IMG/VR virus record: IMGVR_UViG_3300042938_000256
Location: 1 to 31,903 of that record
Length of the DNA: 31,903 bases
Source: a virus
Strand: one strand, 5' to 3'
A model generated the notes under the pieces. That model saw only the letters and a list, made by a program, of their open reading frames with translations. It was not told the origin of the DNA and ran no database searches. A program made the translations under genes and the position numbers. Below, piece after piece: positions 1 through 31,903 of this stretch (the stretch's first letter is position 1; each line of letters starts with the position of its first letter).

Positions 1-182
1 GACGCATTAGTAACATTTATCGCAAAATATGTGCTTACATTTCCGTCACTATTTGTAGCTAAATTTGTTCTTTGTCCCTCTACCAATAAACTCGGACAAC
101 TTCCGTTTGTGTAATCAACACGAGGTACGTTTACCGCTACGCTTTCAATTAATCCCGCACTATTTACTCTCGTTGCAGTTGT
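1..182. repeat. Left copy of terminal direct repeat (182 bp)
   Basis: Bases 1-182 match 31722-31903 at 179 of 182 positions. The differences are at 128 and 129 (CG here, TA in the right copy) and 150 (T here, C in the right copy). The repeat lies inside the tail-fibre reading frame, which stays open across the join. This is either an assembly overlap of a circular or permuted genome sampled from a mixed population, or a real short terminal redundancy. Confidence 0.95.
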
Positions 183-4049: not shown

Positions 4050-4589
4050 TTATGCTACAGTTCCTACAACAATAAATTCTAATCCAATAGAATCTATATC
4101 GTTATTAAGAATAAAATTAGCAGCAATAAATTCAGTTCCTAAAAATTCTAATTTATAACCAGACATATCACTCATTGATGCACCTGTAGAAATTGTAGAA
4201 GTAGTTAATTCCATACCTTTTTCTTTTCCAGCTAAAAATATGTTTCCGTTATTATCTTCTACAAATATTCTTGGTCTACCATAACTTAAAATTTTAAGTT
4301 GTTTGTGGTCGGCAATAGATAACTTTTTTAAATGTAAAGTTAATTTTTGTTCTACAAAAGACGAACCATTTTCTCTTGATGAAGTAACTGTTTGTTCAAA
4401 AGTTGAAGCCCCTTTTAATTCGTACTTATATAGTGATGCATCACCAGGATTTGATACGTTTTGTATTACATCATTGCCATCAACAGTTATAACGGTACTA
4501 CTAAGATAATTAAAAAGATAAACTGCCCTTATTCCACCAATAACATTCTTACATTGTTCAGCTCTTCCCAAAGTTATATCGCAAGGCAT
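4050..4589 (-). CDS. Tail tube (major tail) protein, paralogue 2
   Basis: 179 residues. It is aligned along its full length with the neighbouring 180-residue protein: both begin MPCDI(S/T)LGRAEQCKN and share YELKG(T/A)STFEQTVTSSREN, LSYGRP and EDNNGN blocks, and both end in GTVA. The fold expected for this class is the beta-barrel tail tube, whose hexameric rings stack around the tape measure. Divergence is concentrated in residues 25-55 and in the last 25, as expected for surface loops. A strong terminator follows, consistent with an abundant product. Whether both copies are built into one tube or one has another role (decoration, distal ring) is not known. Confidence 0.65.
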   Translation of the reverse strand: MPCDITLGRAEQCKNVIGGIRAVYLFNYLSSTVITVDGNDVIQNVSNPGDASLYKYELKGASTFEQTVTSSRENGSSFVEQKLTLHLKKLSIADHKQLKILSYGRPRIFVEDNNGNIFLAGKEKGMELTTSTISTGASMSDMSGYKLEFLGTEFIAANFILNNDIDSIGLEFIVVGTVA

Positions 4590-4612
4590 AGTCTATTTTT
4601 TTAAAATTAATA

Positions 4613-5155
4613 TTATGCTACAGTACCTTCAACAATAGAAGCTAATATACCTGTAGTTAATGGTCCAGTTACAAAGTTTGCAGCAACAGGCTCCATTCCT
4701 TGAAATTCCATAGAATATCCACTTTTATCAGCCATAGCAGCACCATTTGAAATAGTTGCAGTTACTAAGTCCATACCTTTTGTTAAACCAGCTAAAAAGA
4801 AGTTTCCATTGTTATCTTCAATGATAACTTGTGGTCTACCGTAAGATAATAATTTCAATTGTTTATGGTCAGCAATAGTTAATTTTGCTAAACTTAAACT
4901 TAATTTTTGGTCTACAAATGTAGTTCCATTTTCTCTTGAACTTGTTACAGTTTGTTCAAATGTAGAAGTTCCTTTTAATTCATATTTATAACCTACAGGA
5001 GTTCCACCTAAAGCAGTTATAACATCTTCTAATCCTGCAGTTGCAGAATAAGTTACCGTTGTTGCATCACCCCAATTAATGAAGTACGCAGCTCTTAATC
5101 CACCGATTGAATTTTTACATTGTTCGGCACGTCCTAAAGATATATCGCAAGGCAT
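4613..5155 (-). CDS. Tail tube (major tail) protein, paralogue 1
   Basis: 180 residues, the first of the tandem pair, placed just downstream of the capsid gene and its terminator. Residues 57-160 carry the conserved block STFEQTVTSSRENGTTFVDQ, then LLSYGRPQVIIEDNNGNFFL and GYSMEFQGMEPVAANF. I recognise this pattern from major tail or tube proteins of Bacteroidetes phages. Position after the capsid gene and duplication both fit a high-copy structural protein. It is less certain than the capsid assignment because tube proteins diverge quickly and a head decoration role cannot be excluded. Confidence 0.65.
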   Translation of the reverse strand: MPCDISLGRAEQCKNSIGGLRAAYFINWGDATTVTYSATAGLEDVITALGGTPVGYKYELKGTSTFEQTVTSSRENGTTFVDQKLSLSLAKLTIADHKQLKLLSYGRPQVIIEDNNGNFFLAGLTKGMDLVTATISNGAAMADKSGYSMEFQGMEPVAANFVTGPLTTGILASIVEGTVA

Positions 5156-19218: not shown

Positions 19219-19310
19219 AATATTATTATTAAAATTATTGATGTTATTATTACTATTGTACATATCCACGCTGTTACTTCTACTACTATTTTTTCTTGTT
19301 TGTTTGTCAT
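19215..19310 (-). CDS. Tiny single-span membrane peptide (31 aa)
   Basis: 31 residues. The N-terminus is charged (MTNKQEKIVVEVTAWIC) and the rest a stretch of Ile, Leu, Val and Thr that would span a membrane. Both ends overlap neighbours as ATGA (DnaA-like gene before, 64-residue gene after), so it is very likely translated. Confidence 0.65.
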   Translation of the reverse strand: MTNKQEKIVVEVTAWICTIVIITSIILIIIL

Positions 19311-19828
19311 AGTTTTATGTTTTTATTCATTCTATAAAATGCTTGTAGTCTATCGTTTATTATTTCATACTGCATTGTTCCGTTTGTTTCTTCTAAAAGG
19401 TTATTTAAGTTTTCTATTATTTCATAGTTATATTTTTTTGTTTGTTGTTGTTTCTTTAGTTCGTTTTTTAATTCGTTGTTGTTAAATCTTAACGTGTTTA
19501 TTTGTTGCTGTAATGCTTCTGTTTCTGTTAGTTCTTCTATTTGTTTGTCTACCTTTATAAAGTGACTTAAAATAGTATCTTTAATTGCTTTTAAGTCTGA
19601 ATTATCTTTACTGTATACTTCATACATTCTTAATGCGTGTATGATTGTAGCGTGATTTAAATCTATTGTTTCTCCTATTGATTGTAATGTTTTATGTGGC
19701 TTTAATTGTTTTAGTATTGTGCAGTATAAACTTCTTATTTCAACTGTATTTTTCTTTCTTGTTTTTATGTTTATATCTTCGCCTGTTTCTTGTAGTATTA
19801 TTTCTTTTAATCTTTCTGTTATTTCCAT
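19307..19828 (-). CDS. DnaA domain IV-like DNA-binding protein with coiled coil
   Basis: 173 residues. Residues 24-70 resemble the C-terminal DNA-binding domain of bacterial DnaA: RKKNTVEIRSLYCTILKQL followed by LQSIGETIDLNHATIIHAL, where DLNHATIIHAL corresponds to the DnaA signature helix (D-H-(A/S)-T-(I/V)-x-H-A). No AAA+ domain is present. Residues 95-130 are a Gln-rich coiled coil (ELTETEALQQQINTLRFNNN). It could recognise DnaA boxes at a phage origin, compete with host DnaA, or act as a regulator. It follows the MazG fusion by one base and overlaps the next gene as ATGA. Confidence 0.7.
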   Translation of the reverse strand: MEITERLKEIILQETGEDINIKTRKKNTVEIRSLYCTILKQLKPHKTLQSIGETIDLNHATIIHALRMYEVYSKDNSDLKAIKDTILSHFIKVDKQIEELTETEALQQQINTLRFNNNELKNELKKQQQTKKYNYEIIENLNNLLEETNGTMQYEIINDRLQAFYRMNKNIKL

Positions 19829-19829
19829 T

Positions 19830-20585
19830 TTATTTATCTTTTACAAATGTTCCGTCAATCATTTTACCTGTTCTTTTGTTTATAATACTATATGCGCTTA
19901 ATATACAGTCTTCTATATTATATCCTGCTAATTTAGATAGGTTAGTTAATACTACAACGCAATCTCCAATAGCATCTATAATCTCTTCTTTGTCATTATT
20001 TAATAATGCTTTTGCTAATTCACCCGCTTCTTCTTGTAGTTTTATATATTGTGTCTTTACATCTCCTTTTTCAAATATTCCTTTTTGTTCTGCCCAAGTT
20101 CTAATATTACTAAATATTTCTAATTCAGTATTTTTACCAGCATTTAAATAATTTAATAAAGCTTCTACATATATAAATCTTTCTTTGTTATGTTGAGAAC
20201 TTGCATTGTTTTGTAAAATCCAATTAATTGTTTTGTTATCAAACTCTATATGTTTTCCATTTAATAGTTCAACTAACATAGGGAAACTATACCCGGTTAA
20301 TTTAGAATCATTTGTATTTTTAAAAGTTAATGTTCTTTCTGTAACGTGAATCATTTTTGTCATAATTTTTTTATTTTTATTAATCATTAATTGTAAATAT
20401 GAATTTTTATCTTGTTTATAATTGTAAATCTTTTGAAAATGTATTTCTAATTTAGATGCGTGACTTATTTTATCTGTTGAAGCTAATATTTCATAGTCTT
20501 TATATCCTTGTATTAATTCAACTCTTAGTTTTAGATTGTTAGTACATCCTATCTTCACTCCTTCTATATGATATATATAATACAT
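19830..20585 (-). CDS. GIY-YIG domain fused to MazG-type NTP pyrophosphohydrolase
   Basis: 251 residues in three parts. Residues 1-60 look like a GIY-YIG nuclease: YYIYHI, then VKIGCTNNLKLRV with R21, and E47 in SKLEIHFQKIY. Residues 75-155 are unassigned (KLTGYSFPMLVELLNGKHIE). Residues 157-251 match MazG: YIKLQEEAGELAKALL with E185, E186 and E189, and KEEIIDAIGDCVVVL with E201 and D204. MazG enzymes hydrolyse NTPs or dNTPs to monophosphates. M75 (20363) follows an A-rich leader-like stretch that is translated as INKNKKI, so the MazG part may have an independent start and the GIY-YIG part may have been fused onto it. Its ATG overlaps the stop of the synthase as TAATG. Confidence 0.75.
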   Translation of the reverse strand: MYYIYHIEGVKIGCTNNLKLRVELIQGYKDYEILASTDKISHASKLEIHFQKIYNYKQDKNSYLQLMINKNKKIMTKMIHVTERTLTFKNTNDSKLTGYSFPMLVELLNGKHIEFDNKTINWILQNNASSQHNKERFIYVEALLNYLNAGKNTELEIFSNIRTWAEQKGIFEKGDVKTQYIKLQEEAGELAKALLNNDKEEIIDAIGDCVVVLTNLSKLAGYNIEDCILSAYSIINKRTGKMIDGTFVKDK

Positions 20586-21352
20586 TATACGGCCACTTCA
20601 CAAGTTATTACTGGGCCACTAATATATTCTTCTATAACTAATTTTTTATTATTATATTTATATTTAGGCAATTTATTAATTGGTTGTTTTAAATATTCTA
20701 TAACAGAATTTATTTGATTTTTATAAATATGGGCATCAACAATTTGTAAATCTATAATGTTTGCTTTTAAATTTGTTTGTTCGCTTATATACAATAATAT
20801 TTTAGAAAATAAAGCTATATCATATGGTATTCCAAGAAATAAATCACCAGACCTTTGCACAACAAACATATTAAGTTTATCTTTATTAACAAAAAATTGG
20901 AAATATAAATAGCAAGGAGGCAGTGCCATTTGATTTGTTTGTATTGGATTCCACAAAGATATTATATGTCTTCTACTATCTTTATTGTTGTTTAATGAAT
21001 CAATAACATTTTCTAATTGATTTATATTACTATCATTAAAATTTATCATCTGATGACCGTAAACAGGTCCTAAATTTCCATTTTCATCCGCCCAAGCGTC
21101 CCAAATTTTTATATTATTATTTTGGAATCTTTTAATATTAGTTTCGCCGTTAATAAACCATTCAAATTCAGCATTAAAAACTTTAGGGTATATTTTTCTG
21201 CCTGTTAATATAGGAAACTTTTTAGATATATTTATGCTTAAACTTTTATTAAAAATTGAATAACTTCCTATTTTAGTTCTATCATTTCTTTTTATACCTT
21301 TATTTAAACATTCGCTTAATATTTTTTTATAATCTTTTTCAAATTTACTCAT
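20585..21352 (-). CDS. Thymidylate synthase-family enzyme, predicted dCMP-specific (dCMP hydroxymethylase-like)
   Basis: 255 residues, complete. Family residues are all present: R25 (NDRT), FEWFINGETN (63-72), IWDAWADENGNLGPVYGHQ (83-101), R127/R128 (DSRRHI), catalytic C147 in LPPCYLYFQF, QRSGDLFLGIPYDIA (166-180), and DAHIYKNQ (206-213). At the position that contacts the pyrimidine (E. coli ThyA N177) this protein has D178. Asp here is known in T4 dCMP hydroxymethylase, and an Asn to Asp change in ThyA favours dCMP. I infer a 5-hydroxymethyl- or 5-methyl-dCMP product; a thymidylate synthase remains possible. It lies between a DUF6378-like gene and the MazG fusion. Confidence 0.8.
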   Translation of the reverse strand: MSKFEKDYKKILSECLNKGIKRNDRTKIGSYSIFNKSLSINISKKFPILTGRKIYPKVFNAEFEWFINGETNIKRFQNNNIKIWDAWADENGNLGPVYGHQMINFNDSNINQLENVIDSLNNNKDSRRHIISLWNPIQTNQMALPPCYLYFQFFVNKDKLNMFVVQRSGDLFLGIPYDIALFSKILLYISEQTNLKANIIDLQIVDAHIYKNQINSVIEYLKQPINKLPKYKYNNKKLVIEEYISGPVITCEVAV

Positions 21353-21614
21353 TTTTATTATTGTTTGAATTGTTTAATGCTGCTATATACCCAACGCAAT
21401 CAAGCATTGTATCTTCTTTTATATTATAAGCCATTCTACTTATTTTTAATGCTATCATACATTTATAAAAATCTTCTTTAGTTATTTCTTTATTGCATAA
21501 TATAGATGCAACAGTAGCCGCTTTTTGCATTGATTCATCAAATGGGCCATACATACGTTCTTTTTCTTCTGAACGTAAATTAATAATGTTGTTTGCTTCT
21601 TCTAAAATGTTCAT
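21345..21614 (-). CDS. DUF6378-like phage protein
   Basis: 89 residues. RSEEKERMYGPFDESMQKAA then CNKEITKEDFYKCMIALKIS and DTMLDCVGYIAAL match the pattern I know for DUF6378 proteins (YGPF..S...A, ...ALK..R, D...D..GY.A). These helical proteins are frequently found near nucleotide metabolism genes and resemble all-alpha NTP pyrophosphatases in helix layout, but function is not established. It overlaps the synthase start by 8 bases, so the two are likely coexpressed. A weak TATATTTA box lies about 30 bases upstream of its start. Confidence 0.65.
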   Translation of the reverse strand: MNILEEANNIINLRSEEKERMYGPFDESMQKAATVASILCNKEITKEDFYKCMIALKISRMAYNIKEDTMLDCVGYIAALNNSNNNKNE

Positions 21615-24938: not shown

Positions 24939-25481
24939 TTAATATAATGTGTTATAATCGTTAGTAATATAATCCTGATAATCCTTGTTAAATTTTGTAT
25001 TTAATATTTCTTTGTAATTCTTAATACTATGAAATATTGATATTAAACTAATATTGGTTTCTTTTGCAATATCACGCATACTCATATCTGTATCTCTATA
25101 CAATTTAAATAGTTTGCGGTCATACCAGTGCCAATTATCTATTTCTTCGTCAATCATTAAACATATATCATTATACGCTTTATGTTCTTCTACGTTTGAA
25201 TCATCAAATAATTCCCAACATCCATCAAAAGATACTTTATTAATCTTTTTCTTCTTGTTGTAAAACTGATAATAAAGGCTTCTAAGCGTGAAAAACATAT
25301 ATCCTTTACGTACATTACCATTTACATCAATTAACTTTGTAGCATCAGCATATTTCATTAAAGCAATGTAACTTTCTTGGACAATATCTTCTGCATAATC
25401 AAATTCACCAAGTTTATGAATAACTTCTACCCATTCTTTGTGATGTTTTGCAACTTCTTCTAACCATTTGTAGTTGTCCAT
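24939..25481 (-). CDS. Sigma-70-like transcription factor
   Basis: 180 residues. Residues 25-45 (LGEFDYAEDIVQESYIALMK) match sigma region 2 helices (the D..QE.F pattern of ECF sigmas), and residues 60-80 (GYMFFTLRSLYYQFYNKKKK) would be the DNA-contacting part of region 2. Residues 122-160 hold a C-terminal helix-turn-helix (DTDMSMRDIAKETNISLISI) as in region 4. It is the best candidate for redirecting host RNA polymerase to phage promoters. It begins 22 bases inside the membrane protein gene. A non-sigma HTH regulator is possible. Confidence 0.7.
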   Translation of the reverse strand: MDNYKWLEEVAKHHKEWVEVIHKLGEFDYAEDIVQESYIALMKYADATKLIDVNGNVRKGYMFFTLRSLYYQFYNKKKKINKVSFDGCWELFDDSNVEEHKAYNDICLMIDEEIDNWHWYDRKLFKLYRDTDMSMRDIAKETNISLISIFHSIKNYKEILNTKFNKDYQDYITNDYNTLY

Positions 25482-30853: not shown

Positions 30854-31903
30854 TTAGAGGGTTGTTAATGTGATACATTCTGTGTCTGTTAAAGCTGTTT
30901 TATAAAGTTGTGTTGAATTATTATAAGAAGTATTAGATAGACTATAATAACCATCATCATAAAGTTGTAAAGAACTTAATGCGTTGCTAAATGTAAATGA
31001 ACTTATTGAAGTTTGTGTTAATTTAACACCATTTAAAAATACTTTAAAAGTTCCATTAATATTATATGTTATTGCAGCTTTATTTCTACCTATTAAAAAA
31101 GCTTCATTTGAATAACTTAATTTTGATGAATTACTTGCTATTACTATAAAATTAGCTTTGCTACTTTGTTGTGAAATATAAATTGCATTAACAGCTCCAT
31201 CTCTTTGAATAGAAGCTGATATTTGATTATTTCTATCTCTAATATAAATATCTACAAACAAAGTCCCTTCTGTTTGCCCTATTAAACTACTTATTCCTGT
31301 TTTAGATATTACATCAGCGTTTCTTGATTGAATACTTGCTACTGTTGGAATATATGAAGTTGGGTAACTTGCTGCTTCTAATTGTATTCCTGTAATTTTA
31401 AAAGATTTTAATACTTGCGTATCGTATCGAAGAACGCCATTATTTGCATTAATTCCTGCACTTGTTGCTGTTCCACTTAATCTGTAAACATTATTTCCGT
31501 AACTTTCAACTTTCAAATTATTTGTAACAACTGCTCCCGCTATAACTAAACAAACATTTCCCGTTGTTTGACTTGCCGAAAGTATTGGAACTGAATTATC
31601 ATCCATTTTTATAAAAGCAGAAATAGCGTAAGTTTGTACTGTTGTAACTATTGTTTTATAAGCTAAAGCTAAAGCAGTGTTTGGAAATTGTATTGCATTT
31701 GTAAATGAATTAAAAGAACTCGACGCATTAGTAACATTTATCGCAAAATATGTGCTTACATTTCCGTCACTATTTGTAGCTAAATTTGTTCTTTGTCCCT
31801 CTACCAATAAACTCGGACAACTTCCGTTTGTGTAATCAACACGAGGTATATTTACCGCTACGCTTTCAATCAATCCCGCACTATTTACTCTCGTTGCAGT
31901 TGT
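30854..31903 (-). CDS. Tail fibre/spike protein, main part (continues at the left end)
   Basis: Residues 39-387 of the 387-residue fibre whose start lies at 1-296. A TTG near 31873 gives an apparent start, but the frame is open to the edge and the true ATG is at 296. After PRVDYTNGSCPSLLVEGQRT the protein is Ser, Thr and Asn-rich with beta-strand spacing. Residues about 240-387 (ISSLIGQTEGTLFVDIYI, then TYNINGTFKVFLNGVKL) resemble a LamG/concanavalin-like sugar-binding domain. It probably recognises a surface glycan of the host. Confidence 0.8.
   Translation of the reverse strand, partial: TTATRVNSAGLIESVAVNIPRVDYTNGSCPSLLVEGQRTNLATNSDGNVSTYFAINVTNASSSFNSFTNAIQFPNTALALAYKTIVTTVQTYAISAFIKMDDNSVPILSASQTTGNVCLVIAGAVVTNNLKVESYGNNVYRLSGTATSAGINANNGVLRYDTQVLKSFKITGIQLEAASYPTSYIPTVASIQSRNADVISKTGISSLIGQTEGTLFVDIYIRDRNNQISASIQRDGAVNAIYISQQSSKANFIVIASNSSKLSYSNEAFLIGRNKAAITYNINGTFKVFLNGVKLTQTSISSFTFSNALSSLQLYDDGYYSLSNTSYNNSTQLYKTALTDTECITLTTL
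31722..31903. repeat. Right copy of terminal direct repeat (182 bp)
   Basis: Second copy of the sequence at 1-182, with three substitutions at 31849, 31850 and 31871. In the fibre frame two substitutions are silent and one changes Val to Ile. That is the pattern of natural strain variation rather than sequencing noise. Confidence 0.95.

Follow-up and report, generated by a model that had tools for sequence, protein, structure and literature searches.

A candidate deoxycytidylate C5-methylase and its MazG-type partner in a phage of probable Bacteroidetes hosts

A thymidylate synthase (TS) homologue with aspartate in place of the substrate-selecting asparagine raises the question of which pyrimidine nucleotide the enzyme acts on, and whether its product enters the phage DNA. 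The gene lies on a viral contig of 31,903 nucleotides (IMG/VR record IMGVR_UViG_3300042938_000256), the whole of which is referred to here as the window. The contig ends overlap by 182 bp with three mismatches, giving a circular sequence of about 31,721 bp, and a gene runs in frame across the join (Table 1), so the record is apparently a complete phage of ~31.7 kb. Owing to the three mismatches, a test that requires exact repeats would miss this closure and call the contig linear. Genes for a terminase, a portal and a tape-measure-like protein are present and the GC content is 27%; no tRNA was found in the window, and no DNA polymerase among its annotated genes. Two tandem paralogous genes at 4050–5155, encoding 179 and 180 aa, resemble duplicated tail proteins, and the early region encodes a sigma-factor-like protein (YlxM/sigma-70 region 4; 24939–25481). 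Among named phages, the flavophages Nonlabens phage P12024L/S have the closest large terminase (55%). A Bacteroidetes MAG includes a contig with one relative of the TS gene, which makes a Bacteroidetes host the most likely.

Table 1 Features of the window discussed in the text.
Feature	Position	Strand	Basis or remark
Contig-end overlap, left copy	1..182	.	98.4% identical to right end
MazG/PRA-PH domain	19890..20125 (approximate limits)	minus	EE-x2-E + D-x3-D
GIY-YIG-like + MazG/PRA-PH protein, 251 aa, predicted dCTP to dCMP supply	19830..20585	minus	
GIY-YIG-like (T5orf172/MUG113) N-terminal domain	20405..20585 (approximate limits)	minus	
TS-fold protein, 255 aa, predicted dCMP C5-methylase	20585..21352	minus	Pfam, ThyA alignment, model
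DUF6378 small protein	21345..21614	minus	Overlaps TS start by 8 nt
Contig-end overlap, right copy	31722..31903	.	ORF crosses join in frame

Active-site residues of the TS homologue and their conservation

A first-pass annotation, which did not state the strand, had recognized the open reading frame as a TS homologue. This was borne out by the Pfam search of the window, in which the minus-strand product matched PF00303 with E = 8e-72. The structure model that the annotation had suggested as a check was built with AlphaFold (mean pLDDT 86.5) and has the TS fold, with a TM score of 0.91 to E. coli TS. It also matches 1njc, the solved structure of L. casei TS N229D with dCMP, and its best PDB matches are methylating TSs. 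The phage protein is slightly shorter than E. coli ThyA (taken from NC_000913) and 36% identical to it, with fold, catalytic residues and tail in common. Retained residues, in the E. coli numbering used below unless stated, are R21, E58, W80, W83, Y94, R126, R127, L143, C146, R166, S167, D169, H207 and Y209, which include all those looked for in a member of the TS superfamily (E58, R126', R127', C146, R166, D169, H207, Y209). The alignment confirmed the offset of one that had been reported for the family residues, with the nucleophile C146 appearing as C147 of the phage protein, and likewise the replacement of N177 by D178 (motif LGIPYDIA; codon 20821–20819). A second change had been missed: Y148 of the phage protein occupies the position of H147, i.e. 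H147Y. The Asn177 of dUMP-specific TSs was thus absent, with Asp found in 78/78 members of the clade to which the gene belongs.

In 35 relatives (60–97% identity) that were retrieved with peptide patterns covering neither position 147 nor position 177, D177 and Y147 were both present in every case. After addition of a profile scan and other sources, D177, Y147 and L143 were found in all 78 distinct clade sequences, although part of the further loci were retrieved with a pattern containing Y147 and only the 35 are unbiased for that residue. Canonical phage TSs used as controls carried N177 and H147 in 66/66 cases, as did 25/25 cellular Bacteroidetes TSs of the host order. Position 147 is likewise not His in two other D177 lineages, being Thr in T4 gp42 and Pro in the XP12-related phages. 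The sole D177/H147 TS seen, on a 269-kb viral contig (L154:2911–3825), is otherwise canonical, reads GVPFDIA and has no linked MazG gene. It shows that D177 alone is not proof, and judged by its residues it might represent a further origin of cytosine specificity.

The clade TS genes evolve under purifying selection (dN/dS 0.05–0.20), and the D177 codon is GAT in 64 and GAC in 14 members, so that it is the residue and not the DNA that is conserved. Together with Asp in 78/78 sequences, these values rule out loss-of-function drift at N177. In the tree, the clade and a marine MedDCM lineage share their own long stem (94/100) apart from the cellular TSs, which rules out a recent origin from host ThyA; T4 gp42 and the XP12 relatives form long branches of their own, the position of which is uncertain in detail. 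The closest match to the TS among 50,697 phage records was an uncultured MedDCM sequence at 44.6%, and no cultured phage of the clade was found among these records. As a separate observation, Microbacterium phage Huwbert has a very divergent second TS-like gene (gp67; L042:2135–2986) directly before its canonical TS gene, in which an Asp aligns at position 177, the alignment being unsure.

The adjoining pyrophosphohydrolase gene and the predicted substrate

Directly downstream, and overlapping the TS stop codon via TAATG, lies a gene for a two-domain protein that scores above the PF01503 cut-off. The metal site of its MazG/PRA-PH domain (EE-x2-E ... D-x3-D) is present and invariant. The best structural match of this domain is cyanophage S-2L MazZ (7ody), a (d)GTP enzyme, with TM scores to the domain of 0.65–0.73 and a weak Foldseek E value for the whole two-domain model. 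In the GIY-YIG-like domain, a Tyr, K-x-G-x-T, an Arg and a Glu are invariant across 20 aligned members; among the positions expected of a GIY-YIG nuclease, Y, G, R and E are invariant, but the YIG motif reads KIG or KVG, and Pfam matches to T5orf172 and MUG113 were found in 6/20 and 5/20 members, with E up to 0.01. Six short relatives of ~100 aa consist of the MazG domain only and lack the GIY-YIG-like part. Upstream of the TS gene, a DUF6378 gene occurs in a subset of the relatives and also stands beside TS in locus L116; its product is possibly NTP-PPase-like. A protein with a DnaA C-terminal helix-turn-helix (19307–19828) adjoins the modification genes on the other side and is a possible origin-binding or replication regulator.

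A pyrophosphohydrolase directly adjoins the TS gene in 73/78 clade members and lies within 1.5 kb in 77/78, compared with 0/66 and 1/66, respectively, for N177 phage TSs, counted over sequences that are related to one another and not independent. In 10/10 XP12-related phages, a pyrophosphohydrolase of a different subfamily adjoins the D177 TS gene on its upstream side; these counts were made with several query families, the narrow MazG HMM alone giving 0/10 in the XP12 relatives as it misses their subfamily. The two arrangements suggest that a triphosphate-trimming partner joined a D177 TS at least twice. In published work, PF01503 co-occurs with TS on modified contigs, positions 177 and 147 are the two most associated with such contigs, and N177D in TS switches the substrate to dCMP with 5mdCMP as product (PMC8670742); a cyanophage MazG prefers dGTP and dCTP (PMC6850273). 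Taken together, D177, the non-His residue at 147, the linked pyrophosphohydrolase and the parallels in T4, the XP12 relatives and the MetaGPA contigs make the predicted cytosine specificity of the TS homologue well supported. The first-pass annotation had proposed a cytosine substrate from the Asp at 177, as in T4, and the wider evidence points the same way.

The searches for partner enzymes bear on what happens to the product. No thymidylate kinase, T4-type dNMP kinase or AAA_33 kinase (PF02223, PF21448, PF13671) was found in the clade, PF02223 having been run on the relatives and the window genes having been covered by separate annotation scans; several of the clade records searched for partner enzymes may be fragments. 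Likewise, searches of the window and the clade records gave no DHFR, dCMP deaminase or second TS, with positive results for T4 or other controls. A marine Autographiviridae locus (L041, MedDCM-OCT-S28-C10, 2164–4185) has its D177/Y147 TS among a PRA-PH pyrophosphohydrolase, a P-loop kinase-like protein and a dCMP deaminase, and from this gene content it may be a fuller version of the pathway.

It is unlikely that the enzyme still yields dTMP, whether by using dUMP despite D177 or through deamination of 5mdCMP by a host dCMP deaminase. Such a supply could serve an AT-rich genome (27% GC), the TS fold comes with all catalytic residues, no 5mdCMP kinase was found, and deaminase-family proteins are common in bacteria, as the search controls showed. 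However, N177D has been published as favouring dCMP, no phage dCMP deaminase was found in the clade of the window, and neither the strict conservation of D177/Y147 nor the pairing with a MazG gene would be of evident use to an enzyme that simply supplied dTMP. Canonical TS is moreover already available in the hosts: 72/79 host-group genomes have their own, and the MAG with the TS relative has both, so that a spare source of dTMP is not obviously needed.

The expected product and a proposed pathway

The first-pass annotation had left open whether the enzyme makes 5-hydroxymethyl- or 5-methyl-dCMP, and the residues favour the second of these. In hydroxymethylases, an acidic residue stands three before the catalytic Cys, a Ser/Thr-x-Tyr motif is present and the C-terminal tail is lost, the corresponding features of the T4 enzyme being Asp145, Ser94-x-Tyr96 and the lack of a tail (PMC6400193). 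None of these was seen here. At the place of the acidic residue, Leu143 was found in 78/78 clade members, and at the place of Ser94 the clade has Pro or Lys; the TS homologue of the window reads Pro-Val-Tyr (no Ser92, Y94), ends in VAV and keeps Trp80 and Trp83. Throughout the main clade the tail ends in VAV or VAI and Trp83 is kept; only the distant MedDCM group deviates in the tail and has Tyr at 83. The Leu, the Pro-Val-Tyr, the tail and the two Trp residues lead us to expect hydride transfer and a 5-methyl product, and with D177 the enzyme has all the sequence features looked for in an XP12-type dCMP methylase. Hence 5-methyl-dCMP is the better prediction for the product. A literature search on 5-methyl-dCMP with TS gave no match.

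A dCMP hydroxymethylase like T4 gp42, in which water replaces the hydride and the phage carries 5hmC, is accordingly quite improbable, even though D177 is common to the two proteins and TS-fold hydroxymethylases do exist in phages; besides the residues just described, on which the T4 type was rejected, the best PDB matches are methylating enzymes and no glycosyltransferase-type partner was noticed. It is very doubtful that 5mC is inserted as an intermediate from which an unrecognized enzyme makes a hypermodified cytosine: Nonlabens phage P12024L, closest among cultured phages in its terminase, has genes for a Tet/JBP dioxygenase and a glucosyltransferase, but a search of the window and 43 relatives gave no Tet/JBP or C5-MTase, and the scanned early genes of the window gave no candidate. 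Three consecutive genes of P12024L (L122, 16409–18674) encode that dioxygenase, a protein annotated as beta-glucosyl-HMC-alpha-glucosyltransferase, and a methyltransferase; this related flavophage may modify its cytosine by another route, acting after replication.

We therefore consider it probable that the TS gene encodes a deoxycytidylate C5-methylase that belongs to a two-gene, pool-editing module, the DNA acquiring 5mC through host kinases and polymerase. In the first step, the MazG-type protein would hydrolyse dCTP to dCMP and so both reduce the pool of the competing precursor and provide the substrate. In the second, Cys147 of the phage enzyme would attack C6 of dCMP while Asp178 would hold and protonate the N3/N4 edge of the cytosine; methylene-THF would provide the carbon and the hydride, and 5-methyl-dCMP and DHF would be released. 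Host nucleotide kinases would then produce 5mdCTP for insertion by the host polymerase, so that 5-methylcytosine might stand for much or all of the cytosine in the phage DNA. Such DNA would be expected to resist restriction at C-containing sites, i.e. to be shielded from bacterial defences. T4 endonuclease II is a GIY-YIG enzyme that cuts unmodified host DNA, and speculatively the GIY-YIG-like domain might do the same.

Several observations stand against this pathway: there is no DHFR to recycle DHF, the MazG domain is structurally closest to a (d)GTP enzyme, the D177/H147 TS of L154 shows Asp177 in a canonical setting, and a phage kinase for 5mdCMP, comparable to the dNMP kinase that T4 encodes, was not found. 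The MazZ match nevertheless supports a supply role, since MazZ feeds a base-modification enzyme (PMC8342488). With no phage kinase detected, phosphorylation of 5mdCMP falls to host enzymes or an unrecognized protein, and this is the weakest step of the proposed pathway. The gap is not fatal: three S-2L genes, none of them a kinase, suffice when expressed in E. coli for Z to appear in its DNA (PMC8342488), and a phage kinase for the modified monophosphate is not required by the definition of a 5mC-substituted phage.

Significance and comparison with known systems

To our knowledge, only a handful of phages that replace all cytosine are known. We put forward tentatively the broader idea that the two genes, with host kinases and polymerase, suffice for 5mC replacement in a ~32-kb phage, with the GIY-YIG domain destroying unmodified host DNA, and that this system arose separately from those of T4 and XP12 and is common in uncultured Bacteroidetes phages. 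If true, pool-level synthesis of 5mC would be widespread in these phages with as few as two phage genes, metagenomic 5mC signals in them need not stem from DNA methyltransferases, and the clade could provide dCMP methylases for the production of 5mdCTP. The combination of D177, a non-His residue at 147 and an adjacent all-alpha NTP-PPase would then distinguish phages that probably modify cytosine from carriers of an ordinary TS. Both TS homologues acting on dCMP or CMP (T4, XP12, MilA) and the occurrence of D177 on modified contigs are already known; as far as our searches reach, what is new is the clade with its Y147, its strict association with a gene for a MazG fusion protein, and the minimal set of genes in a phage of ~32 kb.

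A close parallel is the dCMP methyltransferase of Xanthomonas phage XP12, in whose DNA every C is replaced by 5mC (PMC7653180, PMC9206674). Relatives of XP12 (DLP4, PaMx28) likewise have a D177 TS homologue adjoining an all-alpha NTP pyrophosphohydrolase, but their TS is a separate lineage (P147, N143, F83, no VAV tail), the pyrophosphohydrolase is of a different subfamily and placed upstream, and the genomes of 55–64 kb also carry DHFR and dCMP deaminase. T4 gp42, with the dCTPase gp56, resembles the phage of the window in TS fold, D177 equivalent and a partner that converts dCTP to dCMP. The window TS is only 21% identical to gp42, lacks its water-addition signature and keeps the TS tail and Leu143, and the gp1-type kinase of T4 is missing. 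In the S-2L Z-cluster (MazZ, PurZ, DatZ), a MazG-type enzyme also feeds a monophosphate to the biosynthetic enzyme for an altered base, although the base is a purine, the biosynthetic fold is different and MazZ is (d)GTP-specific. The MetaGPA modified contigs (PMC8670742) share Asp177, an altered position 147 and a PF01503 neighbour with the locus described here, and show carbamoyltransferases and deaminases in addition.
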